A stretch of DNA of 64,000 nt from NCBI GenBank assembly GCA_021228405.1, contig JAJQRF010000011.1, forward strand, positions 1-64,000, read 5' to 3'. The stretch is from Pyrinomonadaceae bacterium. Lineage in GTDB: Bacteria; Acidobacteriota; Blastocatellia; Pyrinomonadales; Pyrinomonadaceae. Position numbers and translations under genes: made by a program. Positions 3,672 through 29,599 of the stretch are shown here, one piece after another (position 1 is the stretch's first letter; every line of letters begins with the position of its first letter). The notes beneath the pieces were generated by a model that saw only the letters and a list, made by a program, of their open reading frames with translations, was not told where the DNA came from and made no database searches.

Positions 3672-3678
3672 AAAAAAT

Positions 3679-3775: not shown

Positions 3776-3780
3776 ACACT

Positions 3781-3940: not shown

Positions 3941-4032
3941 TAATCTCTTATAACTACTGTCGCTAATCTCTACTGCGAAGTAGATTTTTACTCACGCCAC
4001 CAGACGATTTGTTACTGCAATACCGATGATAG

Positions 4033-4245: not shown

Positions 4246-4304
4246 TACAGATCTTCGCTTCAGGGTACGCCCGGCTATGGGGACTCGAACAAAATAAATT
4301 ACCT

Positions 4305-4889: not shown

Positions 4890-4900
4890 CTTCAAATATT

Positions 4901-6127
4901 TTATATCTGCATAGTCGCCCAAACAGTTTGATAAATTGCCGAAACGAAATCATTAACTATTTGGCAACCGGTTCCCTGTATCATTGTTAAGTCTTTTTCG
5001 CTTGCACTTTGGACAAAAACGATAACAGGCTTATTCAGCGATCTTGCATAACCAATTTCAAAAATTGTTCCCGCATCCAAATTGTCTAAAACAGCAAATA
5101 CAATGTCACTCCTAATAAGTCCATCGATATCAGCAGGAGCAACCTTTTCTGCTTTTCCATATCCTACATCATGAAAAGGAGAAAATACATTAAATCCCTC
5201 CTCTCGTAGATATTTCCGGGCTTCATCAATTATCCACCGCTCTGCCATAGAGAAAAAAGGTCCAGCTAAATATATTTGCTTTGGTTTATTTGGAAACTCA
5301 TTTTTACGCTTGATAGGTTGATAGCTTGCAAGAGTCTTAAAATCTACTGGAAGGGGGAGTCTTCTAGTATCACAATAATAAGCTGTCGCTAGTGATGCCA
5401 GATGAGCAGATTCAAATGGATTTTTATTACACGATGCCCAAAAATGAGCAAAGACCGCAGTAAAAATGTCCCCTGAACCAATCGAAAATACTCTCGTAGT
5501 TTGGTATATCGGAACAGATTGGATTTCAGAATCAGTTATTACTAGTGCTCCTAAACCACCTTGCTTTACAACAACAATGTCTGCTGCTTCCTTTTCTCGC
5601 AGTTTATTGCCTAGAATTTCTGCATCGAATAAGTCACGTGGGCTATCCGTCAATTTTTGACACTCACTAATATTTGCGATGATGGCAAGCTTTTCTGCCG
5701 TTGATCCATTTGCCCTAAATAATTCTGAATTGTATTCATTTTGAGGATCGTAGGTAACTTTTTCGCCGTGCACAACAGCATCGCCTTCCAAAAAACCGTA
5801 GCGAATAATATTTTGGGCATTTACAGATAGTTTAGAGTTTTTTGCTATTTTTGGAATAGGAGGTTCAATTAAAGGATCAGACAAGCAATGATGATAATTA
5901 AAAGAAATGGTTTGAGGAGTTAATTTAATATCGCCCAACTGAAAATCAAGCGTAGTAGCCAAATGCTCGAGACGTTGTTTTTCATTTTCTCCAACATATG
6001 TTGTCAGATATACTGCCTCGTTGAGATGCGACAAAGCGGATGCTGCTCGCCCCCCTGACCCAAATAAATTATTCCAAGGCGGCTCAAGACAATTCTCCAA
6101 ATACGTCCCTCCAACAATATGAATCAT
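4901..6127 (-). CDS. PfkB-family kinase fused to a nucleoside 2-deoxyribosyltransferase
   Basis: 408 aa, two domains. Residues 1-~270 look like a ribokinase/PfkB sugar or nucleoside kinase: the N-terminal glycine motif GSGGRAASALSHL and the C-terminal motif VFSIGSGDIFTAVF, whose GSGD holds the usual catalytic Asp. Residues ~283-408 are a nucleoside 2-deoxyribosyltransferase: YLAGPF, SDIVFAVLDN and GTIFEIGYA, whose Glu is the expected nucleophile. The first domain would phosphorylate a nucleoside or sugar; the second would cleave or swap the base of a (deoxy)nucleoside or nucleotide. It overlaps the gene before it by 4 nt (ATGA) and precedes the QueC-like gene by 11 nt, so the products probably work together. 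The fused order suggests base-exchange chemistry. Substrates are inferred, not shown. Confidence 0.75.
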   Translation of the reverse strand: MIHIVGGTYLENCLEPPWNNLFGSGGRAASALSHLNEAVYLTTYVGENEKQRLEHLATTLDFQLGDIKLTPQTISFNYHHCLSDPLIEPPIPKIAKNSKLSVNAQNIIRYGFLEGDAVVHGEKVTYDPQNEYNSELFRANGSTAEKLAIIANISECQKLTDSPRDLFDAEILGNKLREKEAADIVVVKQGGLGALVITDSEIQSVPIYQTTRVFSIGSGDIFTAVFAHFWASCNKNPFESAHLASLATAYYCDTRRLPLPVDFKTLASYQPIKRKNEFPNKPKQIYLAGPFFSMAERWIIDEARKYLREEGFNVFSPFHDVGYGKAEKVAPADIDGLIRSDIVFAVLDNLDAGTIFEIGYARSLNKPVIVFVQSASEKDLTMIQGTGCQIVNDFVSAIYQTVWATMQI

Positions 6128-6447
6128 TTACCTTTCAGAATTGCATCAATTATACAAAGTCCGCTTTCTATAGAAACCACTTCTCCAAGATATTCGTGTT
6201 GACGCTGAATACAGTCAGTTAGCTGATACTCGATGACAGCACCAGCTCTTTCTTCTTCGTAAAAGACTTCTAAGGATGGGCTTCCAGCTTTTATAATGAC
6301 TTTAAAGGTAAGTTTATCTCCGAGTTTGATTTTTCGTAAAACCTCATCATTGGTAGAATATAACTGTAGTGATTTGTATATTTCTTCACATTCCCTGCCT
6401 CTCGGAGTTCTTGGCGGACCTGAATCATTTCTAACATTATTTGACAT
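6124..6447 (-). CDS. Small protein of the QueC/OGG cluster, family unknown
   Basis: 107 aa. I do not recognise a family. A polar, probably flexible N-terminus (MSNNVRNDSGPPRTPRGRE) is followed by a short helix and then an apparently all-beta region (KLTFKVIIK, SLEVFYEE, AGAVIEYQL, YLGEVVSI, LCIIDAIL), which could be a small barrel. Its stop overlaps the next start by 4 nt, so it is translationally coupled to the PfkB fusion. A small beta protein with a loose tail beside a QueC-like enzyme could be a carrier or modification target, but that is speculation. Confidence 0.6.
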   Translation of the reverse strand: MSNNVRNDSGPPRTPRGRECEEIYKSLQLYSTNDEVLRKIKLGDKLTFKVIIKAGSPSLEVFYEEERAGAVIEYQLTDCIQRQHEYLGEVVSIESGLCIIDAILKGK

Positions 6448-6503
6448 ACTATTTTATTTCTACATAAAACTTTACTGAGTTAATTTCTAAGGATCTATTT
6501 ACC

Positions 6504-7265
6504 TTAATGAGAAATACCCTGCCGAATATAACGCAAAGCCATATTACCAGCAAGTTTCATTTCTTGCCAAATTAGGACATCTAACTGAGAGGCTTTAACG
6601 CCAATTCCTGTTGCCAACCGAAGAAAATCATCTTCCATTTCAAGATAATTTTTGGCTGGAGTTTGTTTTGCATTATAAAGATTCATTAATAATCCAGCAC
6701 GATGAATATGAATATCAATTATTGCTACTTTATCACTGTGCAACCAATTTCGAGTTATCCACGAAGCTGTTTTATAACCTATCCCTTCGAAACCCATTAA
6801 CCAAGAGCGAAATTTAAGAGAGTCTTCAGGTGCAGTTTCATGCGCAATTTTCTTTAAAGCATAGCTCAAATACTTTGATTTTTGTCGGGCAAAACGATAA
6901 CGGACTCGCCTTTCGTTAATAACGAGTGGTTCAGCAAGAACTTTATAAATTTCGTCTTCTGAAGGAGTTATTTCAAGTATTCCTATTTCTTTTACCCAAT
7001 GAAAGGCTGCCAACCCAACTTCTGATGGAATACCGTATCCGCCTAATATGCAAGCCGATATTTCCTCAGTTAGATTATCGCCAACTCTATAGGACTTTGG
7101 CTTAAAGTTATTTTGTTGTGTCCAAGAAAGAACTTTCCAACACGCCGGAGTAAACAAATGGGTGTAATTCCCCCAATATACCCCAGGAGTTACTTCTTCA
7201 TTAGGATCAGGTAATTCAAGAGTTTCAACTCTATTATTTAGTTTTGTAACAATTCTTTGACTCAT
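6504..7265 (-). CDS. OGG-like HhH-GPD DNA glycosylase/lyase homologue
   Basis: 253 aa. The helix-hairpin-helix GIGYKTASW (161-169) carries Lys165 at the position of the catalytic lysine of 8-oxoguanine glycosylases/AP lyases, and VAIIDIHIHRAG supplies the conserved aspartate (Asp184). Family enzymes excise an oxidised or modified purine and nick the abasic site. It is first in a four-gene minus-strand operon (56 nt before the small protein). OGG-like genes next to QueC-like genes are a hallmark of type IV CBASS; here no CD-NTase is seen. It may act on a deazaguanine- or oxo-purine-type base in nucleic acid or nucleotide. Confidence 0.75.
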   Translation of the reverse strand: MSQRIVTKLNNRVETLELPDPNEEVTPGVYWGNYTHLFTPACWKVLSWTQQNNFKPKSYRVGDNLTEEISACILGGYGIPSEVGLAAFHWVKEIGILEITPSEDEIYKVLAEPLVINERRVRYRFARQKSKYLSYALKKIAHETAPEDSLKFRSWLMGFEGIGYKTASWITRNWLHSDKVAIIDIHIHRAGLLMNLYNAKQTPAKNYLEMEDDFLRLATGIGVKASQLDVLIWQEMKLAGNMALRYIRQGISH

Positions 7266-7414
7266 ACCACTTTATAATAAGCAACATTTGAACTATCATA
7301 AATAATATCATATTATTATCTATGTCGCAAAACCATCATATTGCATAAATCAATCTCTTTATTAGAATATGGATTGTCGTGTAAATTAGGAACATCAAAT
7401 TTGTTGCAAAATCA

Positions 7415-8011
7415 ATGATTAATAAAGAAGTATCAGAAAGCGAAGAAACTCTGCGAGAAAGTTATACGCTCCCGAAGAAGGAACAGGATCGCTTAACAAG
7501 GATTCAAAATAAATTTTCTGGAATTAAACCGACAATAAAAAAGAGTGAGATAGTTCGCGTAGGAATATATAAAGTTGCTCATTTGGACGAGAAAGACGTT
7601 AAAGAAATATTAGAAGAAAAGCTTGGTAGATTATCAGTTGGTAAGCCAAAAAAGATTGCAGTTATTGAACAATCTACAACGTTAGCAATTACCGTTAATG
7701 ATAAGCAATGGAAGGCAATTTCTACATTGTTTCCAGTATCAAAAAAATCACAAGGAAGACCCAGAGCAGAAAATCGTCAGGTCATCAATGGGATTTTATA
7801 TATTTTCCGATACGAAACTCAAAGAAGAAATGTTCCAGAGGAGTACAGTTCCTATATGACTTGTCGTCGTAGATTAACCATATGGAGAAAAAATGGATTT
7901 TGGAAACAAATATGTAATTCTTTGGTTAATAATGCTTTTAGCGGACAAAAAAAAGAACTTGAAGGTATATTACTGAGAACATGGCTTATTGATACAAATT
8001 TTAAACTATAG
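7415..8011 (+). CDS. Possible RHH-type DNA-binding domain fused to an IS5-type N-terminal domain
   Basis: 198 aa. Residues ~15-85 have a ribbon-helix-helix flavour (IKKSEIVRVGIYKVAHL, then EKLGRLSVGKPKK), like antitoxin or accessory repressor proteins. Residues ~105-170 match the DUF4096-type N-terminal domain of IS5-family transposases (WKAISTLFP, GRPRAENRQVINGILYIF, then SYMTCRRRLTIWRKNGFW). The DDE catalytic part of IS5 is absent and the gene ends normally, so it is either a domesticated DNA-binding protein or a chimera left by an IS insertion. It is divergent from the OGG/QueC operon, with 149 bp between the starts, a position suited to its regulator. Confidence 0.5.
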   Translation: MINKEVSESEETLRESYTLPKKEQDRLTRIQNKFSGIKPTIKKSEIVRVGIYKVAHLDEKDVKEILEEKLGRLSVGKPKKIAVIEQSTTLAITVNDKQWKAISTLFPVSKKSQGRPRAENRQVINGILYIFRYETQRRNVPEEYSSYMTCRRRLTIWRKNGFWKQICNSLVNNAFSGQKKELEGILLRTWLIDTNFKL

Positions 8012-8302
8012 TAAGCAATTAACTGTTTCAAAAATCAAAAAAATATTATATTTGTCGAATTCAGATTAACTATCATAGCAAATTTTAACGCCTTAATTAT
8101 ATATGTCTATTCAAGATTTAATTTACGTTAATAATATACAATTCTCACTAAATGAAATTGGGTTTAGTGGGTGAAACATTGTATTAAGCTTAAATTGCCA
8201 TTAGTAATTGGTGCTACTTTTGCCAATTTTAGGTAGACAACCACTAGTCTAATTGTTTAGTATATCTATACAAACTTACAAAGTTTGTCAAGTTTCTTGA
8301 AT

Positions 8303-8337
8303 AAAAAAGCTAAGACCTTGAAATTCAAAGCCTTAGC
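8303..8337 (-). terminator. Strong intrinsic terminator of the small gene
   Basis: In the minus sense a ~12-14 bp stem (arms GCTAAGGCTTTGAA and TTCAAGGTCTTAGC, two G-U pairs; 8309-8337) is followed by six T (8308-8303). It begins 5 nt after the stop of the small ORF. Confidence 0.8.
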
Positions 8338-8342
8338 CTAGC

Positions 8343-8435
8343 TTATTCAGCTATTGAGATAGTCAAAGTTAGTGTAAATTTGTTGATTGTTAGTCTAATT
8401 TCTACTCTACCTTTGACACATCTAAAGTTCATCAT
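8343..8435 (-). CDS. 30-residue small protein with ideal ribosome binding site
   Basis: From ATG 8435 (a second ATG follows directly): MMNFRCVKGRVEIRLTINKF and then a Thr/Leu-rich tail ending SIAE. AAGGAGGTG lies ~8-10 nt upstream, one of the best Shine-Dalgarno sites in the window. A strong terminator follows at once and a highly structured leader precedes, so this is a compact monocistronic unit of ~250 nt. The peptide alternates hydrophobic and polar residues, suggesting beta strands. No family recognised; a type I toxin or regulatory peptide is possible but unproven. Confidence 0.5.
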   Translation of the reverse strand: MMNFRCVKGRVEIRLTINKFTLTLTISIAE

Positions 8436-8465
8436 AGATGAAACACCTCCTTTTTATTAAGGATG

Positions 8466-8548
8466 CAAGATAGTTAATGTTGGTAGCATTAACTATCTTG
8501 TTTAGCTTATACCTAAGCTAAACTCTTTAAAGGCAAGGAGAAAGCCTT
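8466..8548 (-). ncRNA. Structured 5' leader upstream of the small ORF
   Basis: Three consecutive stem-loops on the minus strand: AAGGC/GCCTT around a loop containing CTCCTT (8548-8530); TTTAGCTTA/TAAGCTAAA (8522-8501, 9 bp, 4-nt loop); and a perfect 14-bp stem CAAGATAGTTAATG/CATTAACTATCTTG with a 7-nt loop (8500-8466). The CTCCTT loop is complementary to the AAGGAG of the small ORF's ribosome binding site, so a loop-RBS interaction could control translation. It may be a leader of the 30-aa gene or an independent RNA. Confidence 0.5.
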
Positions 8549-8573
8549 GATCTTGATTTTTTGATTATAGAAT

Positions 8574-8822
8574 TTATGAACGAAAAACACAAAAAAAATC
8601 CTGTTGTCGGTCAACAAAAAAAGACGCACTCAGAATTTGAATGAACAAAGAATGCTTTACGGCAGTTTTTCCAGACGAACCGCGCTCTTGAATCAGCTTT
8701 TCACGTTTCGCTTTGTGCATATTCTTTGCTTTGCCGTCGGTGAAAGATTCGTCAACTTCGATTTCGCCCTTTATTTTTTCAAAAGTTCCATTCTGTGAAG
8801 CGTATCTGAAGCGGTGAAGCAT
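8574..8822 (-). pseudogene. IS1595-family (ISXO2-like) transposase fragment
   Basis: 82 codons. MLHRFRYASQNGTFEKIKGE, IEVDESFTDGKAKNMHKAKR and GSSGKTAV match the start of the DDE domain of ISXO2-like transposases (first catalytic Asp in EVDES). After GKTAV the frame runs into unrelated residues and stops, so the catalytic core is lost. Confidence 0.7.
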
Positions 8823-9376
8823 AAACTAAGAGGTTTTTGGTAATACCGATAGAGCCGTGAATCTGCAGAAAGCGAAAAATAAAATCATGTCAAAAGATAT
8901 ACATATCGTCCAGAATCTGACAGCAACTCATTTTGGAACAAAACAAGCTGTTTGTGTGCCCCTGAACCTCATGTAATGACACGCATTATTTAATGTTTAA
9001 ATAATGTTCAAGATAAGGTCGTTGTGTTATGCTTTTACACTTAAAAATTATTCGATTTTGAAATAATAAAGTTGTATAGAAATTAATCTGCAAACATTAA
9101 ATAAGAGTTTTTTTACCTTCTTTTATCTCTGATAATTCAGCTTTAGTAAACATCTCTCAAAGGCGGTTTTCCTATGCAACTTATTAGTGTTTCTATCCTA
9201 CTTCCAAATACGTTAAACTAGGATGGGGTTCTCTTGAAACCTTAATAGACTATAATGCCAAAATTTATTTAATGATAGAGACGAGCTAAGCTAACTGCTA
9301 GAAATTTAACCCCTCTACTTTCAGCCAATACTTAATCAGTTAAATTAAAAATGTTACTAAAACCTTAACCATTTCC
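8823..9376. other. Gene-free decayed stretch with transposon debris
   Basis: No convincing gene. It holds short frames, such as a 29-codon one at 8887-8976 and an 18-codon piece on the minus strand starting MFTKAELSEIKEG near 9152, without recognisable families. The only clear element is the left-end fragment at 9041-9085. It probably represents several rounds of IS insertion and deletion. Confidence 0.4.
9041..9085 (+). repeat. Inner left-end fragment of a Tn7-like element
   Basis: TTAAAAATTATTCGATTTTG followed by AAATAATAAAGTTGTATA aligns with 471-510 of the outer left end, that is, only the innermost TnsB-type site (9062-9079). The terminal 100 bp are missing. It marks the deleted edge of another element between the two cargo clusters. 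Confidence 0.65.
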
Positions 9377-9404
9377 TTGATTTACAGCATTACTTGTGTA
9401 TAAT
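9377..9404 (+). promoter_or_regulatory. Putative sigma-70 promoter of the NurA/HerA operon
   Basis: TTGATT (9377-9382), 16 bp spacer, TATAAT (9399-9404), about 100 bp upstream of the first start codon. It is the only good match in the gap. No operator is evident. Confidence 0.5.
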
Positions 9405-9512
9405 TTCTCGCAGATACCATAATTTACGGCGGTTTGAGTAAATCTCAGATTCTCGAAGGTTGAATTTCAACATGTAAGCGAAAATAATTCGTTTTTTACA
9501 TTTTCCACAATT

Positions 9513-10676
9513 ATGAATGGCATTCTAGAACATATTGCCGAAAAAACGAGTGGTAAAGCCTATAAATCTTTTCGCTACTGTTACGACAAAGAGGTAAATG
9601 TCCCGACAGTCGCGTATGACGATCACGAAACTTATATATTAAAACGCGGTCAGATTGCCGAAAGTGACAAAGATATTAAACAAGTTAAGAAACTTGCCGA
9701 CTACGCCAAAGAACTCTCAAAAGTTAAACCTCTTTTTAGTTATTTTCTTGATGGAAGCCGCCGAGTATATAAGATTGATGATATACAGTATCAAAATCGG
9801 CTATTTCCAGTTTTAGGTGGGCAAATAGGCGTTGCCTGTTGCATTAGACCGAATCGTGAATCTTTTTCAGTTAAGGAGATCGAGCGATTACTCGTCTTAT
9901 CACTACCATCATTATCTACGACCCGGGAAAAACATAGAAAGCAGTTTTTAGATAGATTGACAAAAGAAATTAATCAACATCCCCGACTTACAAAATTCGG
10001 TCTTAAGTTCGATGAAATTTTACAGTATAACTCTGACCAAGCCAAAAAAGATGTTGAAGAATATATGAAACGCGGAACAGCGACTATTCAAGACAAAATG
10101 ACTGCTGTTGAAAAATCGACTGTTGCCCTGCTCACACAAAAAAGATTTCTTGATGTAGATAATTATTTGATAAAGGACGGATCATTACAATACTCAAATC
10201 CTCCGTCCGACATGCGCGAACTTGCAAAATATAAAGAAAATTTTAGACGAGTCGTCGGAGTCTCCAAATCATTCAATCCTGAACTGACTAAAGATATAAA
10301 AAGTCAAAGCAACGCCGCCAAAATAGCAAGTTTGGAAATGGGGTATCGAACAGTAGCTTATCGGTATTCGAGTGAAATGTTGGGAGATGTTGAATATGCT
10401 ATTTGGTATGTAAGAATTAGAGAAAAAGCGCGTTCGGTGAGTCCGTTTGCAGGAGTGTTGAAACTAGAAAAGATTCTCGTTACCGACGACGAAAAGAAAA
10501 ACGGAATAGACAGCGAGGAAATTGATCTCATTACCGCTCATATAATCAATGAGCGTAATCCCGTCTGTTACGGTAAAGACGAACGTTGGGCGAATCATTT
10601 ATACCCAGTTTTTCTGACTGAAACTTTCGTTAAAAGTAAGTATTTAAGCGATTTACATTTTATTAATTTATTTTAA
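9513..10676 (+). CDS. NurA-domain nuclease-like protein
   Basis: 387 aa. The segment FSYFLDGSRRVYKI (Asp80, DGS) matches the first metal-binding motif of NurA nucleases, and the gene is followed after 12 nt by a HerA-like ATPase, the standard partner. NurA is a Mn-dependent 5'-3' exonuclease/endonuclease that works inside a HerA hexamer. The C-terminal part has EDER-like charged blocks but I could not fix further catalytic residues by eye. There is no clear Shine-Dalgarno before the ATG at 9513. It opens a four-gene operon with HerA, a GHKL ATPase and a radical SAM protein, consistent with a defence or DNA-processing system rather than housekeeping repair. Confidence 0.65.
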   Translation: MNGILEHIAEKTSGKAYKSFRYCYDKEVNVPTVAYDDHETYILKRGQIAESDKDIKQVKKLADYAKELSKVKPLFSYFLDGSRRVYKIDDIQYQNRLFPVLGGQIGVACCIRPNRESFSVKEIERLLVLSLPSLSTTREKHRKQFLDRLTKEINQHPRLTKFGLKFDEILQYNSDQAKKDVEEYMKRGTATIQDKMTAVEKSTVALLTQKRFLDVDNYLIKDGSLQYSNPPSDMRELAKYKENFRRVVGVSKSFNPELTKDIKSQSNAAKIASLEMGYRTVAYRYSSEMLGDVEYAIWYVRIREKARSVSPFAGVLKLEKILVTDDEKKNGIDSEEIDLITAHIINERNPVCYGKDERWANHLYPVFLTETFVKSKYLSDLHFINLF

Positions 10677-10688
10677 GGAAACTGCCCC

Positions 10689-12353
10689 ATGAAAATAGGA
10701 AAGATCGTTGCGACCGAACGAACACCTTCCACAGTGGATGAATTTTACTTCTGGACGGATCAAAAGCTGATTTTAAAGCCGTTCGATGTCATAAAGGTAG
10801 AGCATATTCGTGAATCCGTAACATACGGCATAATAGAGGAAATTTCACACATTACAGACTCGAGCAGTGCACTCGGAGGGTATATTTCCAGTGATTTCGG
10901 TGATCTCGAAATTACTCCCAATATGACTCGCATCGGCATGAATTACGTCAAAGCCCGTGTTTTAGGAAATTCCAAAGACATATACACCCCAGTCTTCGAT
11001 AGCAGTCCGGTTATGTTTGCTGATAGCAAGGATATTGAGCAGGCGTTGGGGCTTTCAGAAATAAAAAATCCTTTGCCTTGCGGTTATGTGGAAATGTATG
11101 AAGATAATCCCGTTTCCGTGCCGGTATTTTTCAATTCTCAATTTCTAATTGGACCAGACGGTGCGCATTTAAATATTTCTGGAATTTCCGGCTTGGCATC
11201 TAAGACCTCTTATGCCATGTTTTTGCTCAAAGCTATTCAGGATAAATATGCAAAAGAAGACCGAACCTCCGATGACAACAATAAAAACAGCGTTGCATTC
11301 GTAATCCTCAATGTCAAAGGACGCGATCTTTTATCGCTCGATGAACCCAATACTGATCTTAGTGTAAAGGAACGTTCTATTTACAAGAAGTTAAATATAG
11401 AACCGACTCCCTTTGAAAATGTGCGGTATTTCTATCCATTTTCATCCGACCCCTCAAGTGTTACATATGCTAAAGAGTTATTTGATAACCAGAAATATTT
11501 AGGCAAAGCTCACCAATACGCTTATACATATTCGCAAGATAAAAGTAAAATTGACATGCTTTTTTCCAACGTTGAAGATTCGAGCGGAACGATGGACTCC
11601 ATACTGTCGATAATTAGTTCGGAGAATAGCGAGTTTGCAAGCATTACCGAATGGAGACGCTTTAAGGAAGAACTTGAAAAAAACAAAAAAAGAGATTCCG
11701 GCAGCGATAAGGAAATAATGGTCGTAAGTTGGCGTAAGTTTAGTCGTCATTTCAATCGCATTTATGAAAAAAGTTCGATTTTTGTCGATAATCTTGATCC
11801 AAATAAGGGCGAAATACGACTTGCCGACGAAATCGCCAATATTAAGAAGAACGACGTGTTCGTCATCGACATCGCCAAACTGGAAGATGATCTTCAGGGA
11901 TTTGTTTTCGGCGATGTTATTAACTCAATTTATGATTTAAAGCTCGGCAGAAACGACGACCGCGATCCCGACGATATTCCATCGAAAATAATTATTTTCG
12001 TTGATGAGTTGAATAAATATGCCTCCAGTGACGTGCCGAAAAATTCCGGCGTTCTCAGACGTTTATTAGAGATAACCGAACGCGGGAGATCGCTTGGTGT
12101 CATTTTGTTCTCGGTCGAACAATTTAGAAGTGTAATTAACGACCGTGTTAAAGGTAATTGTTCAACGAACGCATATGGCAGAACCAATTCGACGGAAAGC
12201 ACGAAAACAGACTATCGGCACATTCCGCAGGTTTACCGAACGATAATGACTAGATTTAAACCGGGCGAATATATTATTGACCATCCAGCATTTCGTTCCC
12301 TACTACATATAAAATTTCCGCGACCAGTTTATAAACAGCATTCAAATGGATAA
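10689..12353 (+). CDS. HerA-like hexameric ATPase/translocase
   Basis: 554 aa. The N-terminal ~70 residues look like a HAS barrel (GKIVATERTPSTVDEFYF, YGIIEEISH). The P-loop at 165-174, GISGLASKTS, departs from the usual GxxGxGK[ST] by Ser before the Lys. The Walker B is IIIFVDELNKYA, followed by RRLLEITERGRSLGVILFSV and a conserved C-terminal motif around RFKPGEY, all typical of HerA/FtsK-clade DNA pumps. It probably drives DNA through a NurA nuclease. It overlaps the next gene by 8 nt, so it is translationally coupled to the GHKL ATPase. Confidence 0.75.
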   Translation: MKIGKIVATERTPSTVDEFYFWTDQKLILKPFDVIKVEHIRESVTYGIIEEISHITDSSSALGGYISSDFGDLEITPNMTRIGMNYVKARVLGNSKDIYTPVFDSSPVMFADSKDIEQALGLSEIKNPLPCGYVEMYEDNPVSVPVFFNSQFLIGPDGAHLNISGISGLASKTSYAMFLLKAIQDKYAKEDRTSDDNNKNSVAFVILNVKGRDLLSLDEPNTDLSVKERSIYKKLNIEPTPFENVRYFYPFSSDPSSVTYAKELFDNQKYLGKAHQYAYTYSQDKSKIDMLFSNVEDSSGTMDSILSIISSENSEFASITEWRRFKEELEKNKKRDSGSDKEIMVVSWRKFSRHFNRIYEKSSIFVDNLDPNKGEIRLADEIANIKKNDVFVIDIAKLEDDLQGFVFGDVINSIYDLKLGRNDDRDPDDIPSKIIIFVDELNKYASSDVPKNSGVLRRLLEITERGRSLGVILFSVEQFRSVINDRVKGNCSTNAYGRTNSTESTKTDYRHIPQVYRTIMTRFKPGEYIIDHPAFRSLLHIKFPRPVYKQHSNG

Positions 12354-13896
12354 TCAAAAAAAGCCGATAATCGGCAAGTTTGTTATAGAAAATTTGACCA
12401 CAGGCATGTATTCCGATTCGCGTAGCGTGTATCGCGAATACGTTCAGAATTCTGCCGACTCAATTGATAAAGCGATAACACAAAGGCTCATTGGCGAAAA
12501 AGACGGTGAAATTCACATCGAAATCGATGAATTCAGTAAAAAAATTTTGTTTCAAGATAACGGAACTGGAGTTTCGGTCGATAAGGTACAGGATTTGCTT
12601 CAAGATGTTGCCCAATCAGAAAAGGAATTGGGAAAAGATAAAGGATTCAGAGGTATCGGACGACTTGGCGGTTTGGCATATTGCGAAAAACTAATTTTTG
12701 AAACTTCTTTTTCCGGTGAGGATAGAAAATCAATTATGGTATGGGACGCTAAACGACTGCGCGATACTCTCGCCGACCGTGAAAAAAAGCAGGCAGCTGA
12801 CGATCTGATTATGGCAGTTACTTCCTTTGAAACAAAACCCGAAAAAGTTGATGAGCATTACTTTCGAGTTACGATGTCAGGAGTTAGCAATCCAACGCTT
12901 TTAAATTTATCGGTCATACGAGATTATCTTCGATTTACGGCTCCTGTTCCTTTTGATAGTTCTTTTATCTTTCGCTCAAAAATCTATGAAGAAATGTACA
13001 AAGACGGAGTTAAAATTGATGAATACAATCTTTTCGTTAACGCTGAGCGAATTTACAAAGGATACAAAACATTTCTTTACAAAGATAATAATGGAGTACC
13101 GACCAAAATAGGCGAGGTAAAAGACGTTAATATCTTCAAAGAATACTCGAAGGACAATAAAATTCTTTTCTGGGGATGGCACAGCGTTTCCGATATTCAA
13201 AATCTTCATCTGACAAAAATAAACAAGGGTAGAGGGCTTCGTTTGAGAAAGCATAACATCCAAATTGGCGACGAATTTAGATTGGAGCGCCTGTTTAAAG
13301 ATCCGCGATACAACCGATATGTTCTGGGTGAAATCTACGCATTCGATCCTGATTTGATTCCTAATGGTAGAAGAGACGATTTTGAAGCGAATTCGGTTTA
13401 TAACGAATTACAGGAAAAGTTGAAACCGATCTGTGTTGAAATCGACAGACTTTGTAACCGAGCTTCCGACATTCATTCTGCAAAGCGTAAGATCGACGCT
13501 TTTTATGAGTTAAAGCAGTCAGTGGATGAAAAGCAAAAAAACGGCGTAACGAACCGAGACGATTTGATAAAGCTGGAAACGGAGTTGCGCCAGAAAAAGG
13601 AAGTCGCCGAAAAAGCTGAAAAAACATTAAATAAATTCAAAGAAATTGCATCTACTGATACTGAAACCCCCATTGCAAAGATTTTTAAGGAAACGGTGAA
13701 GAATGAGATTCCTAAAGTATATGAGGCTAAGATTGAAATTGATTACAAAAAGCCGATTTTCAGAACCGATAAATTAAGCAAGCTGGATCGTTCCCAGAGA
13801 AAGTTGATGTCAGAGGTTTACGCCATTATTCAAAGTGTACTTTCTCCAGATCTATCGGAGAATCTTATCAAAAAAATCGAAGAAAATTTCAAGTAG
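12346..13896 (+). CDS. GHKL (Hsp90/MORC-like) ATPase
   Basis: 516 aa. A Bergerat ATP-binding fold is visible: N-box REYVQNSADSID (Glu31, Asn35), G1 box FQDNGTGVS (Asp71, Gly73, Gly75) and G2 box KGFRGIGRLGGL (100-110). The middle part resembles the transducer region of Hsp90/MORC-like proteins, and residues ~395-445 are a charged coiled coil (KLETELRQKKEVAEKAEKTL). Such proteins clamp by ATP-driven dimerisation. Coupled by overlap to HerA upstream and 10 nt before the radical SAM gene. In this operon it could act as a DNA clamp, switch or chaperone; which one cannot be decided from sequence. Confidence 0.75.
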   Translation: MDNQKKPIIGKFVIENLTTGMYSDSRSVYREYVQNSADSIDKAITQRLIGEKDGEIHIEIDEFSKKILFQDNGTGVSVDKVQDLLQDVAQSEKELGKDKGFRGIGRLGGLAYCEKLIFETSFSGEDRKSIMVWDAKRLRDTLADREKKQAADDLIMAVTSFETKPEKVDEHYFRVTMSGVSNPTLLNLSVIRDYLRFTAPVPFDSSFIFRSKIYEEMYKDGVKIDEYNLFVNAERIYKGYKTFLYKDNNGVPTKIGEVKDVNIFKEYSKDNKILFWGWHSVSDIQNLHLTKINKGRGLRLRKHNIQIGDEFRLERLFKDPRYNRYVLGEIYAFDPDLIPNGRRDDFEANSVYNELQEKLKPICVEIDRLCNRASDIHSAKRKIDAFYELKQSVDEKQKNGVTNRDDLIKLETELRQKKEVAEKAEKTLNKFKEIASTDTETPIAKIFKETVKNEIPKVYEAKIEIDYKKPIFRTDKLSKLDRSQRKLMSEVYAIIQSVLSPDLSENLIKKIEENFK

Positions 13897-13906
13897 AGCA
13901 AAAGTT

Positions 13907-15952
13907 ATGAAACGAAACATACTTCTTGTCGAACCGAATTACTCGAATAAATATCCGCCTATCGGTCTGATGAAAATCGCTACCTACCACCGAATGTTAG
14001 GTGACGATGTTCGTTTTTACAAAGGCAATATGCAAGATTTCATTATTGATTTGCTTTATGAGGATTGTGTTGAAAAATTGATGAACATTGATTCGGAAGT
14101 GCCGTGGCGAACACATAAAAGTGCAATTAAACGGTTTATCAAGCTCAAGAAGAACCAACTTATTTTTTTGGAAGAACTCGGACTTCAGAATAATGATTAC
14201 AAAGAATTGATATTACGATGTTTGATTGATTTTGCCGACTATTATCGCAAGAAAAAATACATCGAAAGTCCGCGCTTCGACCGCATATATGTGACAACTT
14301 TGTTCACATTTTACTGGAAGATAACAATTGAAACGATCAATTTTTGTAAATACCTCGTAAAAGATATAAACGAACTAAAAATCGGTGGTGTTTTGGCAAG
14401 CTTGCTTCCCACAGAACTCGAAAACGAGGTAAGGATAAAACCGATTACTGGACTTTTAGATAAACCGGGAGAACTTGATCCTGAGATGTCAAAAGCCAAG
14501 AAAATTATCATAGATAATCTTCCTCTCGATTATTCTATTCTCGATGAAATTGAATACGAATATCCAACAAAAAGTGCATATTTTACATTCATGACAAAGG
14601 GTTGTACTCGCAAGTGCGCTTTCTGTTCCGTACCAAAACTCGAACCCGAGTACAAACCGAAAATTGAAACCATCGATAAATTTCAAGAGGTCAAAAAGAG
14701 ATTCGGTGATCAGCAAAATCTATTGCTGATGGACAATAATGTTCTGGCATCGCCTAAATTTCATGAAATCATCGATGAGATAAAAGATATGGGTTTCCAT
14801 AAAGGCGCGACTTACGTCGAACCTAATCAGTTAGAAATTGCGGTAAAAAATTTAGAAAGTGGCTTTAATGATAAAGGATTAACTCGGCGTGCTTTTCGTT
14901 TGATGAATGAGCTTATATCAAGATTAAAAGGTGATGTCGCGCAGAATTATTATGATATTTTGGCTGACAAGGACTTACTAAATCTTGACACCGTTACCAA
15001 AGAAAAAATTCTCGAAGTTTATCCACATATAAAAGATACATACGAGAAATACCGGAACAAAACTCCAAGATTGAGATATGTTGATTTTAATCAAGGGACT
15101 GATTGTCGATATGTAACGGAAGATTTGATGAAAAAAATGAGCGAAATTCCGATCAGACCTCTCCGCATTGCTTTCGATTATCTAGGACTGCGCGAAAAAT
15201 ACACCGAAGCCGTTAGATTAGCTGCCAAATACGGAATAAAGGAACTTTCAAATTATATACTTTATAATTTCAATGATAAGCCAGAAGAGCTTTATGAAAG
15301 ATTAAAAATCAACGTCGAGTTAGGCAAAGAATTCGGTGTTGCAATCTTCTCTTTCCCAATGAAGTTTATTCCGCTATTCGGAGACGAAGCAAAGCACCGT
15401 CAACACACGGGAAAATTCTGGAACAAAAAATTTGTCCGTGCAGTTCAATCAATACTTAACGTCAGTAAAGGAATTGTCGCCCCGTATCATCCTAATAAAA
15501 AAGCGACGTTTTTTTATGAAGCCTTTGGAAAAGATTTGGACGAATTTTTCGAGATTCTACATATGCCGGAAACATATATCATCTATCGGCATTTGTGTCG
15601 TCATAAACTAGACTACACAAAAGTTTGGGAAGAAGAATACCGAAGCCTTTCTGTTAAAGATTTGAGAGTAGCACAAGAGATAATACGGAGCAACGATTTT
15701 TCAAATGAAAATATATTGAAGAAAAAACCGTCCAAAAAAGTTAAACATTTTATGCGGCATTACAGAATGATTAGCAGAAATTCAATTGAAGAGAACGATA
15801 AGGAATACAAAAAAATTAAAAAACTTTATGACGATATGATCAAAAACGACCAATTTATCGATCTTACACTAACTTATGATTTTGAAGCGACAGAGGATAG
15901 AAAGTTGAATTATGATTCACAACTTCCATTGATAAAGTATGCGAGAATTTGA
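13907..15952 (+). CDS. Radical SAM protein with B12-binding-like N-terminus
   Basis: 681 aa from ATG 13907; the longer frame from 13835 would overlap the GHKL gene and lacks family sequence. The N-terminus (ILLVEPNYSNKYPPIGLMKI) resembles the cobalamin-binding-like domain of B12-type radical SAM enzymes, but no DxHxxG cobalamin motif is seen. The cluster-binding motif CTRKCAFC (C233, C237, C240) lies in the centre. The C-terminal ~250 residues are basic and unfamiliar. Radical SAM enzymes cleave SAM to a 5'-deoxyadenosyl radical for modification reactions; substrate here unknown. Last gene of the operon and unusual beside a HerA-NurA pair. Confidence 0.7.
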   Translation: MKRNILLVEPNYSNKYPPIGLMKIATYHRMLGDDVRFYKGNMQDFIIDLLYEDCVEKLMNIDSEVPWRTHKSAIKRFIKLKKNQLIFLEELGLQNNDYKELILRCLIDFADYYRKKKYIESPRFDRIYVTTLFTFYWKITIETINFCKYLVKDINELKIGGVLASLLPTELENEVRIKPITGLLDKPGELDPEMSKAKKIIIDNLPLDYSILDEIEYEYPTKSAYFTFMTKGCTRKCAFCSVPKLEPEYKPKIETIDKFQEVKKRFGDQQNLLLMDNNVLASPKFHEIIDEIKDMGFHKGATYVEPNQLEIAVKNLESGFNDKGLTRRAFRLMNELISRLKGDVAQNYYDILADKDLLNLDTVTKEKILEVYPHIKDTYEKYRNKTPRLRYVDFNQGTDCRYVTEDLMKKMSEIPIRPLRIAFDYLGLREKYTEAVRLAAKYGIKELSNYILYNFNDKPEELYERLKINVELGKEFGVAIFSFPMKFIPLFGDEAKHRQHTGKFWNKKFVRAVQSILNVSKGIVAPYHPNKKATFFYEAFGKDLDEFFEILHMPETYIIYRHLCRHKLDYTKVWEEEYRSLSVKDLRVAQEIIRSNDFSNENILKKKPSKKVKHFMRHYRMISRNSIEENDKEYKKIKKLYDDMIKNDQFIDLTLTYDFEATEDRKLNYDSQLPLIKYARI

Positions 15953-16073
15953 AATAATCAAGTAATTCAAGAATTACTGATCTTATCTTAAATATCCTGC
16001 TAAATTGTTGCTTACAAAATAATAAATCAAATCCTTTTTACTTTGTTTTGTAATTGGAGAATCTAATTTTTTG

Positions 16074-16520
16074 TTAAAGCCAATTATTATTCTTGATATT
16101 TAAATGAAATATATACTCTTTTAATTCAGTAAGAATCGCTCCAGCCTTCTTTGAGTTTCCTATTTCAAAATAACTCAAACTGAGCCAAATTTTTGCTGTC
16201 AAATCTTCTTTGTCTGCTTCTAAAGCATTTTCAAGATGTATTATTGCTTGCTTGTAGTCGTTGTTATTGATAAAAACTTCGGCAATACGCCGATGCAGTA
16301 ATGAAATGTTTGGGTTTTCAGCAATGATGGATTCCAAACAATTAACCGTTTTGTCGGAATCACCCTCTATTAAATGAATGATCGACATGCCGAAGTTCTG
16401 AGCCGTATTATTTGGATGGGTCTTAATGATATCGCTTAGGTTTTTCAATAGATTACTGGATCGACAAGCACACTCTAGTGAGAAATCATTTTTACCATTT
16501 GTTGCAATTTGTTCGGACAT
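16074..16520 (-). CDS. TPR-repeat protein
   Basis: 148 aa, soluble, with tandem tetratricopeptide-like helices (SLLHRRIAEVFINNNDYKQA, then IHLENALEADKEDLTAKIWL, then YFEIGNSKKAGAILTEL), i.e. about three TPRs. It presumably mediates protein contacts. The start lies 11 nt downstream of the SH3 protein gene on the same strand, so the two form an operon. No enzyme motif seen. Confidence 0.6.
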   Translation of the reverse strand: MSEQIATNGKNDFSLECACRSSNLLKNLSDIIKTHPNNTAQNFGMSIIHLIEGDSDKTVNCLESIIAENPNISLLHRRIAEVFINNNDYKQAIIHLENALEADKEDLTAKIWLSLSYFEIGNSKKAGAILTELKEYIFHLNIKNNNWL

Positions 16521-16531
16521 TTCAGATTAAG

Positions 16532-17191
16532 TTATTTCTGCCGTTTTGTTCTTTGTTTTTTAGTATTGGATTTATTATTAAATTCGACTAATTTGATATT
16601 GTTGCCGTGAATCCACGCTGTTTTATCATTTCCGAAAAGAATGACTTGATACCAACCGTTCGTCGGCTGTTCATCCGCTAAAAGAAATTCCTCGCCAAGT
16701 TTTGCTTCTTCAACAATATTACCGCTCAGGTTTGGCTCAAGTCGCAGATTCGCTCTTTTGACAATAATCTGCGCTGTTTTTCTGTTTGAAGATTTTGTCT
16801 TTGAATTGTTTTTCAAAGAATCCCCGCAGATTGCTTCGTGCAATCCTTCGCTGATCGAATCTGGAATCACATTCACCCATTCCGTATCGCTTTCTTTGCG
16901 AAGGAATTTGCCGGTTTGGCTGTAAAACAATATCTCTACAAATAAATATTTCTTCTCTCGACAATTCCATTCAACTAAGTTAAGGCGAAAGGTGCCGTTC
17001 CAGAAGATGCTTTTATTCCAGATACGAATATTATTGCCTGATTTCTGCCGAGAGTTTTTATCAATATAGAACAAAGTGCCGTCAGAACTTTTATTGACAT
17101 AAATCCAACGATTTTCCTGTTGCGCCCAAACTGGTGAACAAGCAAGAACTGTAATAATTAATAAAAGCAAAAAGGTGAAAGTTAATCTCAT
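16532..17191 (-). CDS. Exported protein with SH3b domain
   Basis: 219 aa with a clear signal peptide (LTFTFLLLLIITVLACSPVWAQ). Residues ~27-110 (WIYVNKSSDGTLFYIDKNS, later EWVNVIPDS) resemble the 'surface-adhesin protein E' type domain; residues ~140-200 (KRANLRLEPNLSGNIVEEAK, GWYQVIL, AWIHGNNIKLVE) are a bacterial SH3b domain, often used for cell-wall binding. The C-terminus is strongly basic. Probably periplasmic or surface. Operon with the TPR gene. Confidence 0.6.
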   Translation of the reverse strand: MRLTFTFLLLLIITVLACSPVWAQQENRWIYVNKSSDGTLFYIDKNSRQKSGNNIRIWNKSIFWNGTFRLNLVEWNCREKKYLFVEILFYSQTGKFLRKESDTEWVNVIPDSISEGLHEAICGDSLKNNSKTKSSNRKTAQIIVKRANLRLEPNLSGNIVEEAKLGEEFLLADEQPTNGWYQVILFGNDKTAWIHGNNIKLVEFNNKSNTKKQRTKRQK

Positions 17192-17533
17192 ATTTTTATT
17201 AAGTAAAATTCAAAAGGAAAATCTTTAGATAGACTATATTGAAATCAATAAACTATTGTGTATTAAATACTTCCATCGGATTTTACTTCTTCATATTTTC
17301 CATACTATTAACCGCTTTGAAATAAACCGAGCTGTGATATAAATTAAGATGAAAGATAATGCCGCAGACGGGTAAAACAAGTTAATGATCCGTCTTGTCG
17401 GAAATCTATTTTTAAGATTCTCGGCAACCTCGAACTTTTCAACATTATTAGAACAAGATAGTTCTAGTAATAATACTAATCTCTCAAAAAATCAAAGAAA
17501 GCACAAAGCTTTTTCCATTAGGAGGACAAACTA
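17192..17533. other. Divergent intergenic region, no gene seen
   Basis: AT-rich spacer between the SH3 protein gene (minus) and the XRE regulator (plus). A weak promoter-like pair TTGAAA-16-TATTAA lies around 17233-17260 on the plus strand. Otherwise nothing recognisable. Confidence 0.4.
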
Positions 17534-17845
17534 GTGGGAAGAGCGGCACGGCAATCGGCAAACAATCTGGCAGAAAAACTAAAATACATTCGTGAAGAAC
17601 TGGGACTTTCGCAAAACCAACTGCTTGCAAGACTTGGTTTGAAAGAGGAAGACGGCTTATTCAGAAGCAGTATTTCGGGATATGAATTAGGGACCAGAAT
17701 TCCACCGTTCAAAGTTCTTTTAGCCTACGGGAAGTTGGCAAATGTATACGTTGACGTATTAATTGACGATGCGCTTAATTTACCTGATAAAATCCCCAGT
17801 CAACAGAAATCAGGCGGAGTTTTGAAAATAAAACAAAATTCGTAA
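17534..17845 (+). CDS. XRE-family helix-turn-helix regulator
   Basis: 103 aa with a GTG start at 17534 preceded by AGGAGG (17520-17525) at good spacing, which fixes the start. The Cro/C1-type HTH lies at residues ~13-70 (LKYIREELGLSQNQLLARLG, then FRSSISGYELGTRIPPFKVL). It would bind DNA as a dimer and often represses nearby mobile or toxin genes. It stands alone here, 150 bp before the IS66 gene, so its target is open. Confidence 0.75.
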   Translation: MGRAARQSANNLAEKLKYIREELGLSQNQLLARLGLKEEDGLFRSSISGYELGTRIPPFKVLLAYGKLANVYVDVLIDDALNLPDKIPSQQKSGGVLKIKQNS

Positions 17846-17995
17846 CTACTCAAGCATAACGATAAAACCAATGATTTCAGTAGTTTTGACCTACTCTTTC
17901 TCTATTAGGTTTTCAAGTTCACTTGCATTTTCGACGAAAGTTATATATCTTTCTCAACACTCTTTAACTTTGAATTTTCAGGATGGAGTGCCGGA

Positions 17996-19600
17996 TTGAA
18001 TATTACCTACAGCACAATTCGCCGCCGCTATGACCAGGGTTTGGATTCTATAGTCCGGCTCGTCATCCAATTTGAAGACTGTATCGAAGATTTAAGTGCA
18101 ATGCACGTCGGCTCACCGCAACAGCTCATTCGATCACAAGCCGCACAGATCAAACGTGTGGAACAAACCGTTAAGAATAAGGATGAAGAACTGGTCAAAG
18201 CCCATCAGCTCAACGTGCAACTTCAGTCATGCATCCGCGAACTTGAAAAGTCTCTGGAAACGGGTGTAGTCGTGCCGATCACGGACATCAAACGCGATTC
18301 GCATAACTCGAACCAGCCGCCTTCGCTCGATCTGCAGTGGGTCAAACCCAAACGAACCAGAAGCCTGCGAAAGAAGTCGGGTCTGAAGGTCGGCGGACAG
18401 TCCGGTCATCCGGGCGTAACATTAAAGCCGGTCGCTACGCCCAACCGTGTCGTCATATACTTGAACGATCAATGCCTGTTATGCAGTTCATCACTCACGG
18501 AAGTAGAGCCGTCACGCTTTTTCCAGCGGCAGTTTTTCGAGATCGAGAACGGAAGTTTGGCGATCGTCGAACATCGCACGTCACATAAAATTTGTCCGGC
18601 TTGCGGCAATCTCTCCAAAGGGCAATTCCCTTTTAATACGACCGATCCGGTGCAGTATGACACGAGCGTTATATCCCGTGTCGTGTATCTGCATCTCTAT
18701 CAGCTTTTGCCAATCGCTAGAACGCAGGAAGCAATGCGCGATCTGTTCGGCTGTAATATTTCGCAGACTTCGACTCAACGTGCCGCCCAGCTTTGCTCGA
18801 ACAAACTCATCAGACGCGAACAGCGCATCAAAGCGGCGGTTTGTGATTCAGCGGTGATCGGCACGGACGAAACCAGCATCAGGATCAATGGCAAGAATGA
18901 CTGGGTTCACCTCGCCCAGACAGATTCGCTGACACATCTGGGTTCGCACACCAATCGCGGGAAAGCGGCATTCGACGCTATTGGCATTCTCAATCAATAC
19001 AAAGGCATTTTGGTCGGAGACGGCTGTTTTCCCTACAAATGGTATCAGCAGTGCCGACACAGCCTGTGCAACGCCCATCTATTGCGCGATCTTACCTATA
19101 TCGGCGAGTCCGAACCCAATCACGAAGGATGGACGACCGCGTTAGCGAAGTTACTTATCGAGATCAAGGAAGTGGTCGAAACGGCACGGAACGAATCGCA
19201 AACGGAACTTGAAAGTGAGTTGCACGTAAATTTTCTCAGCCGGTATTATGCGCTGACCGCCAAAGCGGAAGAAGCCGTGCGCGGTTCGCCCGAACGGAAA
19301 AGCACGGGACTGACCGCTCAAAGCCTCCTCGGTCGGTTCATCAAGGACAAAACGAAAGTATTGCGGTTTATGACGGATTTCACAGGTCCCTTCGACAACA
19401 ATGGTTCGGAGCGCGATCTGCGAATGTTAAAGTTGCAACAGAAAATAGCGGGCTGTTTTCGCACGACCGAAGGAGCGACGACTTTCTGCCGGGTACGTTC
19501 ATATTTATCTTCGGCGCGGAAACAAGGTCGAAGTCTGTTAACGGCACTTGAACACGCTTTAAAAGGCAAGCCAATAAAGCTAATCAGTCAATTCAACTGA
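17996..19600 (+). CDS. IS66-family transposase (TnpC-type)
   Basis: 534 aa, near full length. TTG start at 17996 with GGATGGAG just upstream. Order: N-terminal coiled coil, the SNQPPS motif, zinc-finger cysteines (CLLC, CPACG), and a DDE core with IGTDETSIR, ILVGDGCFPY and the C-terminal NNGSERDLRMLKLQQK containing the catalytic Glu. IS66 elements normally also carry tnpA and tnpB; neither is seen here, so this is either a tnpC-only form or a broken IS. Its base composition is visibly richer in G+C than the surrounding cargo, so it arrived separately. Confidence 0.85.
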   Translation: MNITYSTIRRRYDQGLDSIVRLVIQFEDCIEDLSAMHVGSPQQLIRSQAAQIKRVEQTVKNKDEELVKAHQLNVQLQSCIRELEKSLETGVVVPITDIKRDSHNSNQPPSLDLQWVKPKRTRSLRKKSGLKVGGQSGHPGVTLKPVATPNRVVIYLNDQCLLCSSSLTEVEPSRFFQRQFFEIENGSLAIVEHRTSHKICPACGNLSKGQFPFNTTDPVQYDTSVISRVVYLHLYQLLPIARTQEAMRDLFGCNISQTSTQRAAQLCSNKLIRREQRIKAAVCDSAVIGTDETSIRINGKNDWVHLAQTDSLTHLGSHTNRGKAAFDAIGILNQYKGILVGDGCFPYKWYQQCRHSLCNAHLLRDLTYIGESEPNHEGWTTALAKLLIEIKEVVETARNESQTELESELHVNFLSRYYALTAKAEEAVRGSPERKSTGLTAQSLLGRFIKDKTKVLRFMTDFTGPFDNNGSERDLRMLKLQQKIAGCFRTTEGATTFCRVRSYLSSARKQGRSLLTALEHALKGKPIKLISQFN

Positions 19601-29597: not shown

Positions 29598-29599
29598 AA

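Follow-up and report, generated by a model that had tools for sequence, protein, structure and literature searches.

TdpAB, a restriction complex coupled to phosphorothioation, joins a nuclease-motor pair with a marking module that stands apart from it; DISARM marks DNA by means of a methyltransferase, and the names DpdB and DndB, like DrmA and DrmB (DrmAB), are tied elsewhere to DNA modification. Here we describe an operon of four genes, encoding a NurA-type nuclease, a HerA-type DNA translocase, a GHKL ATPase and a radical S-adenosylmethionine (SAM) enzyme, which occupies positions 9513-15952 of a 64,000-nucleotide stretch from a Pyrinomonadaceae bacterium (assembly GCA_021228405.1, contig JAJQRF010000011.1, positions 1 to 64,000 of the forward strand; hereafter the window). 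This operon recurs as a unit, and we consider it a candidate mobile system for telling self from non-self DNA.

The first two genes correspond to the NurA-HerA pair of Deinococcus radiodurans (7f6d, 7wrw, 7wrx), with which they share the NurA fold, the HerA sequence and the two-gene operon; an RNase H-fold NurA adjacent to a HerA with intact Walker A and Walker B motifs identifies them, by sequence and fold, as a NurA-HerA machine of the bacterial type. The window operon differs from that of D. radiodurans in adding the GHKL and radical SAM genes, in being mobile cargo and in its patchy occurrence. In the passages of PMC9960219 and PMC12977600 that treat these relatives, HerA draws duplex DNA into NurA, which cuts it, and both the D. 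radiodurans and the archaeal complexes process DNA ends. Sir2-HerA and DUF4297-HerA, antiphage pairs of HerA and a nuclease cited in the same part of PMC12977600, have in common with our locus a HerA motor and a partner enzyme, the partner here being NurA, with GHKL and radical SAM proteins in addition. HerA-family motors likewise occur in the anti-invader operons of the HerA/FtsK capture systems (PMC10853773); the main text of that paper contains neither 'NurA' nor 'GHKL' and uses 'radical SAM' for DndC only, and that of PMC12839542, also on HerA/FtsK systems, has neither 'NurA' nor 'GHKL'.

With TdpAB (8wet, 8wfd) the locus shares the fold of the NurA-like subunit, which our NurA model resembles at Z 13.6-13.9. 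Unlike in Tdp, the partner here is the radical SAM-GHKL pair; TdpA is not matched by the HerA profile at E 0.1, and none of the four proteins showed a domain of a sulfur-inserting enzyme in a Pfam scan. The initial annotation, made from the sequence letters and open reading frames (ORFs) alone, had allowed that the set might already be described under a name. Neither PADLOC nor the literature searched, whose scope left out most subscription papers and all preprints, contains a description of the operon or of a radical SAM-GHKL hub.

The four-gene operon and its products

All four genes are open frames on the + strand, as seen in the ORF list and by reading the sequence: nurA (9513-10676; NurA-type RNase H-fold nuclease, 387 aa), herA (10689-12353; HerA-type DNA translocase, 554 aa), the GHKL gene (12346-13896; Hsp90/HtpG-like ATPase, 516 aa) and the radical SAM gene (13907-15952; B12-domain-type radical SAM enzyme, 681 aa when counted from the ATG at 13907, which we used, the mechanical ORF opening at GTG 13835). 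A 12-nt gap separates nurA from herA, herA and the GHKL gene overlap by 8 nt, and a 10-nt gap precedes the radical SAM gene. These coordinates and spacings agree to the base with the initial annotation, and its naming of the four products held up as well, through fold for NurA, a profile for HerA, Pfam and HtpG for GHKL, and Pfam for the radical SAM protein.

Assignment of NurA by sequence profile alone was rejected as too weak, with 7f6d_H reached at E 0.13 in the PDB and a best Pfam match of only E 0.018, to unrelated families; for this reason its identity was taken from the fold. The AlphaFold2 (AF2) model (predicted local distance difference test, pLDDT, 75) matches D. radiodurans NurA 7f6d_G at a Foldseek E of 8.6e-12 and a VIA Z of 19.4, with a root-mean-square deviation of 3.6 over 293 residues, followed by TM1739 (Z 17.8) and SsoNurA (2ygk, Z 14.9). 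The predicted catalytic aspartates, D80 in FLDGS and D222 in KDGS, are invariant in 12 of 12 aligned sequences.

A HerA profile built from 13 homologues matched D. radiodurans HerA (DrHerA, 7f6d_B) at E 1.5e-46, its sole PDB match at E <=0.1; PADLOC gave only a weak match to mad8 (4.6e-5). The Walker A motif NISGISGLASKTSYA (K172/T173) and the Walker B motif FVDELNKYA (D439/E440) keep these four residues in 13 of 13 sequences. The P-loop looks odd, and degeneration was considered and rejected, since DrHerA has the same loop: NISGISGLASKTSYA aligns with NISGISGVATKTSYA, the two sharing the unusual pattern NISGISG(V/L)A(T/S)KTSYA as well as the Walker B DELNKYA. In DrHerA, K175 touches the phosphate and T176 the metal, and mutants of K175 and of D487/E488 are impaired (PMC9960219, in part); because the window P-loop aligns with this one, the motor should, judging from its residues, be active.

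The GHKL protein matches HATPase_c_3 in Pfam (7e-9) and, by profile, HtpG/Hsp90 in the PDB (4e-12), and it carries the ATP-site motifs REYVQNSAD, DNGTG and GFRGIGRLGG. Across 22 aligned sequences, one of which (L003) lacks the N-terminus, D71, G75 and G100-G109 are invariant, and E31, N35 and D38 are kept at >=90%.

The radical SAM protein (Pfam Radical_SAM, 3.1e-8) bears the cluster motif CTRKCAFC at residues 233-240. CxxxCxxC is present in 45/45 radical SAM ORFs of >=400 aa, and C233, C237 and C240 are kept in all 35 aligned sequences, with no further cysteine conserved at >=90%. Because only these three cluster cysteines are conserved, a second cysteine-bound cluster of the MiaB/RimO kind is unlikely on this alignment, and MiaB-like sulfur insertion is disfavoured for the same want of an additional conserved cysteine. 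The nearest folds to the AF2 model (pLDDT 87) are TsrM (6wte, E 2.6e-8), MgmA, MiaB, AprD4 (Z 15.7), OxsB and TokK, with RimO among the close protein or peptide modifiers; TsrM, OxsB and AprD4 cover most of the model, including an N-terminal part of the cobalamin-domain fold. The cobalamin-ligating DxHxxG motif occurs in 0/35 aligned sequences. TsrM is likewise not known to carry it, so the motif would not be obligatory, and AprD4 has the B12-domain fold but is not known to use B12. The 'B12-type' label of the initial annotation is therefore upheld for the fold and not for the motif, and B12 binding is putative; conserved motif and predicted structure together mark an active-looking enzyme with a cobalamin-domain-like N-terminus. 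A DNA-level search of E. coli, which distant relatives would escape, gave no match to the gene.

Recurrence of the four-gene set

Whole sets of the four genes, ordered as in the window, occur in 20 further loci; in the 19 of these that were compared, the radical SAM protein has 37-61% identity to that of the window. Loci fetched from other genomes and contigs bear L-numbers; their ORFs were called mechanically from the longest start, and overlaps between them are approximate. Eleven of the whole sets (L002, L004-L007, L009-L012, L016 and L017) come from a search of genome contigs with radical SAM patterns, which returned 22 loci; contig ends truncate L013, L014, L015 and L018, which count as partial, and L003, L008 and L019-L023 gave no NurA or HerA match. 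L003 looks degraded (its GHKL match starts at residue 56 and its radical SAM match at 18) and was kept. Four more whole sets are from Bacteroidota genomes (L043-L046), four from virus-like contigs (L048 and L049, found by radical SAM; L074 and L075, found by HerA), and a fecal phage-like record supplied the last (L092).

The contig search is blind to NurA-HerA-GHKL sets that lack the radical SAM gene, and searches with HerA and GHKL provide the converse tests. Among viral contigs, HerA led to four loci, on the contigs of L048 and L049 and at L074 and L075, all with the full set; GHKL led to 16 loci on 15 contigs, 14 of which also carry the radical SAM gene. Among 395 Bacteroidota genomes, the radical SAM profile found six and the HerA profile six. 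All five strong HerA matches (>800 bits) lie in radical SAM genomes, an independent count of 4/4, as one of the five (G429) was the centre chosen for having the operon; the sixth HerA is of a distant kind (179 bits) in a genome without the radical SAM gene, and the sixth radical SAM genome holds a fragment with a stop. Such phylum searches scored at most three first-look candidates per genome, and their counts are lower bounds. Pairwise distances of the four proteins correlate at r 0.913-0.974 over 20 loci (window included, L092 not), and none of 2000 permutations reached the observed value for any pair, in a test that relatedness makes generous.

Recurrence, the Bacteroidota co-occurrence and the distance correlation reject chance adjacency and confirm that the four genes are a recurrent unit, whereas the initial annotation had reckoned with the possibility that they rarely meet elsewhere.

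Nothing intervenes among the four genes in 13 of the 20 loci. L007 has a 479-aa protein inserted, and the 1.1-kb nurA-herA gap of L074 holds an opposite-strand ORF. In L004 and L045 the insert encodes another GHKL, distantly related, along with a 330-aa protein, and in L005, L043 and L044 it encodes an AAA_15 ATPase and a 270-aa protein together with an additional GHKL; two partner modules thus accompany a single radical SAM gene in these last five loci. The distant-GHKL and 330-aa module lies before the radical SAM gene at L004:7340-9989, L008:7329-9995 and in L045, its hosts being a Bacteroidetes metagenome-assembled genome, an Altiarchaeales genome and a Bacteroidota genome; the GHKL of this module shares ~26% identity with that of the window in L004 and L008, and the 330-aa protein of L004 has a weak NCBIfam match (NF047698, 5.5e-5). 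The AAA_15 and 270-aa pair precedes a GHKL gene in the operon in L005, L013, L014, L018, L043 and L044, and PADLOC matches it to NsnB (5.6e-60, L005) and NsnC (3.1e-10, L018), with no NsnC match in L005.

The radical SAM-GHKL pair and its partners

Beyond what the initial annotation had read in the locus, its constant core is the radical SAM-GHKL pair, to which NurA-HerA is only one partner among several. We surveyed 49 radical SAM loci, leaving out L022 and L023 (partial matches of 26-28%) and loci without the radical SAM gene. A GHKL gene on the same strand lies no more than 6 kb away in 40 of the 49, and in 20 of these 40 the two genes overlap by 4 nt; none was detected in L019, L020, L021, L036, L047, L050, L052, L054 and L056, some of them cut or divergent. 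NurA occurs in 18 loci and HerA in 19 (fragments included), and an SNF2 helicase cluster in 14, one of which (L045) is distant and probably unrelated; SNF2 and ParB-like proteins occur together in 13. GHKL precedes the radical SAM gene in the NurA-HerA class, and the order is mostly the reverse in the SNF2-ParB class. The window GHKL matches those of the SNF2-ParB class at blastp E values between 5e-62 and 7e-67, the database searched being very small.

The SNF2-ParB class has as neighbours a 139-aa protein, the SNF2 helicase, two ParB-like proteins and, in part, a DGQHR protein. Cluster names (SNF2, ParB-like, DGQHR, AAA_15) come from one or a few tested members and BLAST clustering, and that of the ParB-like cluster from a ParB N-terminal annotation in two records. 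In L024, the locus tested, the DGQHR protein matches TIGR03187 (2e-44), DpdB (1.5e-17) and DndB (1.8e-11), and the SNF2 helicase is ZorD/DpdE-like. The class thereby shares components with the Dpd and Dnd systems. Neither DpdA nor DndC is among the L024 genes scanned, the other loci not having been searched for them, and the four window proteins gave no match to DpdA, DndC or DGQHR. Side observations at L024 are a ParB-like-cluster protein (3675-4802) that weakly matches VapD in the PDB (3ui3, E 3.9e-4) and nothing in Pfam, and a PIN_8-type protein (tested in L024) with another GHKL beside the radical SAM-GHKL pair (12062-15578; also in L025 and L027), on alphaproteobacterial plasmids.

A third setting recalls DISARM: on one virus-like contig (L053/L078), DrmA (2.8e-161), DrmB (1e-52) and a NERD helicase are followed by the radical SAM and GHKL genes, with a 400-aa protein weakly matching restriction-type PADLOC families, and LmuA and LmuB nearby. 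PADLOC found no Drm match among the four window proteins. Other neighbours include a PD-Lambda-5_A-like gene in L050 (4.1e-32) and a gene of the same cluster in L052, an Mrr-type nuclease in L020 (3.4e-14), and a type I restriction-modification (RM) system that follows L002. Marinitoga camini virus 1 (L091, KP836355.1, 37383-41209) has nurA and herA genes, while its other strand encodes a 360-aa radical SAM protein with similar DNN and DFNQG motifs.

The radical SAM tree comprises 48 sequences (FastTree, midpoint root), those under 400 aa or 350 bits (L019, L021, L036 and L047) being left out. A clade of 24 sequences with support 1.0 holds 20 of the 22 NurA-HerA-labelled sequences together with L014, L015, L003 and L008; HerA was not found in the L003 and L008 assemblies, which are possibly incomplete and were not searched for NurA. 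L055 (SNF2-ParB) groups with L053 (DrmAB) near this clade (support 0.88), away from the other SNF2-ParB sequences, and the main clade does not include the radical SAM proteins of L074 and L075, whose placement has low support (0.21-0.32). The simplest reading is that partner machinery has been exchanged around the radical SAM-GHKL pair.

Proposed function and alternative readings

The genomic context indicates that the operon probably serves in defence or in some other conflict between genetic elements. A defence setting is supported by the type I RM system after L002, LmuA and LmuB on the L078 contig, the NsnB/NsnC-like insert, mobility and patchiness, and the immune function put forward in the initial annotation is plausible. 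We propose, with a probability of roughly 0.45, a mobile self/non-self system in which the radical SAM-GHKL pair marks or licenses self DNA and NurA-HerA destroys the rest. The HerA motor and the NurA nuclease would together draw in double-stranded DNA and degrade it, and the radical SAM and GHKL proteins a separate core module that distinguishes self from non-self. The radical SAM enzyme would most likely place a small mark made by radical chemistry, for example a methyl group or another product of C-H chemistry, on host DNA; GHKL may be a clamp gated by ATP, either loading the enzyme onto DNA or passing the state of the mark on to the nuclease; unmarked DNA would be degraded.

That the pair is a DNA-marking module we hold at just under even odds, because it keeps company with DGQHR proteins related to DpdB and DndB and with DrmA-DrmB, and because TdpAB offers a parallel. 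The same two contexts lend weight to the self-marking modification suggested in the initial annotation, which is plausible. More tentatively, the pair may be a new modular self-marking unit that plugs into at least three restriction machines (NurA-HerA, SNF2-ParB-DGQHR and DrmAB), with a mark of radical SAM chemistry that is of neither the methyltransferase, the phosphorothioate nor the deazaguanine type. What appears new here is a NurA-HerA nuclease-motor pair with a separate, putative radical SAM-GHKL discrimination module, and possibly a new DNA-modification chemistry.

Several observations weigh against the proposed self/non-self system. The substrates of the nearest radical SAM folds are small molecules, peptides, proteins or tRNA (partly according to the titles of the structure entries), and the radical SAM profile found no relative among PDB sequences beyond one chance-like match to an unrelated protein (E 0.024). 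Only 8 of the 49 radical SAM loci have the DGQHR protein, none of them of the NurA-HerA class, and DrmAB adjoins the pair on a single contig, where no methyltransferase is among the genes scanned; one could lie beyond the contig end, 2.7 kb after the radical SAM gene. GHKL stands without a radical SAM gene in the stretch seen of one virus-like contig (L087), and it does not appear in the 13.6 kb seen of Marinitoga camini virus 1. The NurA, GHKL and radical SAM proteins are unmatched in PADLOC at E 0.1, and a known PADLOC system was rejected. Elsewhere, NurA-HerA is a DNA-repair machine (D. radiodurans, in the relevant part of PMC9960219).

This last point leads to a reading in terms of repair or end-processing, with NurA-HerA resecting broken ends and the radical SAM-GHKL pair repairing or handling a lesion. 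The action of the characterised complexes on DNA ends accords with it, as does one plasmid on which a distant HerA relative adjoins sbcD and a gene for an SMC-type ATPase. Against it, the operon is rare and patchy, rides on mobile elements and is mixed with defence genes, and the other partners of the pair are SNF2-ParB, DrmAB and an Mrr-type nuclease rather than repair genes; we judge this reading improbable. The main rival is instead an alarm system without any DNA mark, where on infection the radical SAM enzyme makes a small molecule or alters the nucleotide pool, and GHKL senses the change and opens NurA-HerA. Viperin, which makes 3'-deoxy-3',4'-didehydro nucleoside triphosphates (ddhNTPs), is the parallel. 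Defence contexts and mobility fit an alarm as they fit marking, a small-molecule product could serve the two partner modules found in one operon (L004, L005 and L043-L045), and the B12-domain-type fold includes small-molecule and peptide enzymes. Against it, matches to viperin-like folds reach only Z 7.2-7.4, level with other radical SAM structures, and the DGQHR and DrmAB surroundings are contexts of DNA modification; we judge an alarm unlikely, though of more weight than the other alternatives.

The radical SAM enzyme might also be a maturase that modifies NurA, HerA or GHKL within the complex, given how tightly its gene is linked to the others and co-varies with them, and given that several close folds (TsrM, MgmA, RimO) modify proteins or peptides. 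Yet the same radical SAM family serves NurA-HerA, SNF2-ParB and DrmAB, so that GHKL would be the sole common protein target, and the nine loci in which no GHKL was detected, some of them cut by contig ends, speak against that target; maturation is about as improbable as repair. Lowest of all we place a selfish role, in which the operon guards its mobile element or removes competitors through plasmid or phage exclusion or maintenance. Sequence parts this from defence only with difficulty, and the Tn7-like, plasmid, integrase-flanked and phage locations suit it; the operon is, however, also present on contigs whose record titles bear no mobile label, one beside a type I RM system.

Should self-marking by the radical SAM-GHKL pair be correct, bacteria would label their own DNA by one more chemistry, that of a radical enzyme, and would do so with a portable unit which has been joined in evolution to several unrelated machines for destroying DNA. 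Bacterial NurA-HerA would then also have a clear role in immunity, a question posed for the archaeal complex in PMC12977600.

Tn7-like element and distribution

The initial annotation had placed the operon as transposon cargo, and the window indeed holds a Tn7-like element beside glmS. On the - strand lie TnsE (21178-22857; Pfam TnsE_C, 8.4e-8), TnsD/TniQ (22858-24765; Pfam TnsD, 2.4e-111), TnsC (24770-26566; by position only), TnsB (26511-28721; Tn7 TnsB, 4.8e-108; Pfam Mu-transpos_C, 6.4e-6) and TnsA (28718-29608; Tn7 TnsA, 1.5e-46), followed by a right end of three repeats (29602-29664, -) that abuts a gene we take, from its translation, to be glmS, the attTn7-type target gene (29690-31552, -). 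With its terminal repeats and its site, the element thus belongs to the Tn7 family.

The outer left end (355-540, +) is preceded by ATTTA (350-354). An inner left end (3781-3942, +) has repeats like TnsB sites, with AATAAAGTTGTA sites and a 96-nt repeat 96% identical to 355-450, and a single truncated left-end repeat (9034-9084, +; 86% identical to 465-515) precedes nurA by ~430 nt. With <=1 mismatch allowed, there are 18 copies of AATAAAGTTGTA, against 0.59 expected. Both left ends adjoin a right-end relic, at junctions 181-540 and 3628-3942, and these junctions represent Tn7-like elements inserted in tandem at one attTn7-type site. ATTTA recurs directly after the right end (29665-29669), which fits target duplication of a 29.3-kb unit as weak evidence; the 5-mer before the inner left end, ACACT, does not match it. 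Near the operon (7200-18100) only short, chance-like two-copy repeats were found, the left-end copy at 9034 coming from a wider search. No tRNA or Rfam RNA was reported in the window.

Elsewhere the radical SAM-GHKL pair is carried on plasmids, and the set or the pair stands beside integrases or recombinases, including on virus-like contigs. The operon is rare and patchily distributed: among 60 relative genomes, the window's included, only the window's gave a strong match and one other a marginal match (6.3e-4); only the window's gave more than a marginal match among 37 genomes of the same family, again with its own included; and across the phylum at least 3 of 396 genomes have a match, the window's and two divergent ones.

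Other genes share the Tn7-like element. Within it the operon is flanked by an IS66 transposase and by transposase remnants of the IS4/5 and IS1595 types (17996-19600 and 7415-8822). Apart from the four genes, a second cargo cluster on the - strand (4305-7265) encodes a QueC-like PP-loop protein (4305-4922), a fusion of PfkB and nucleoside deoxyribosyltransferase, an Ogg-HhH DNA glycosylase and a protein of 107 aa. Its content suggests chemistry on nucleosides or DNA bases, and the cluster may be a separate defence module.

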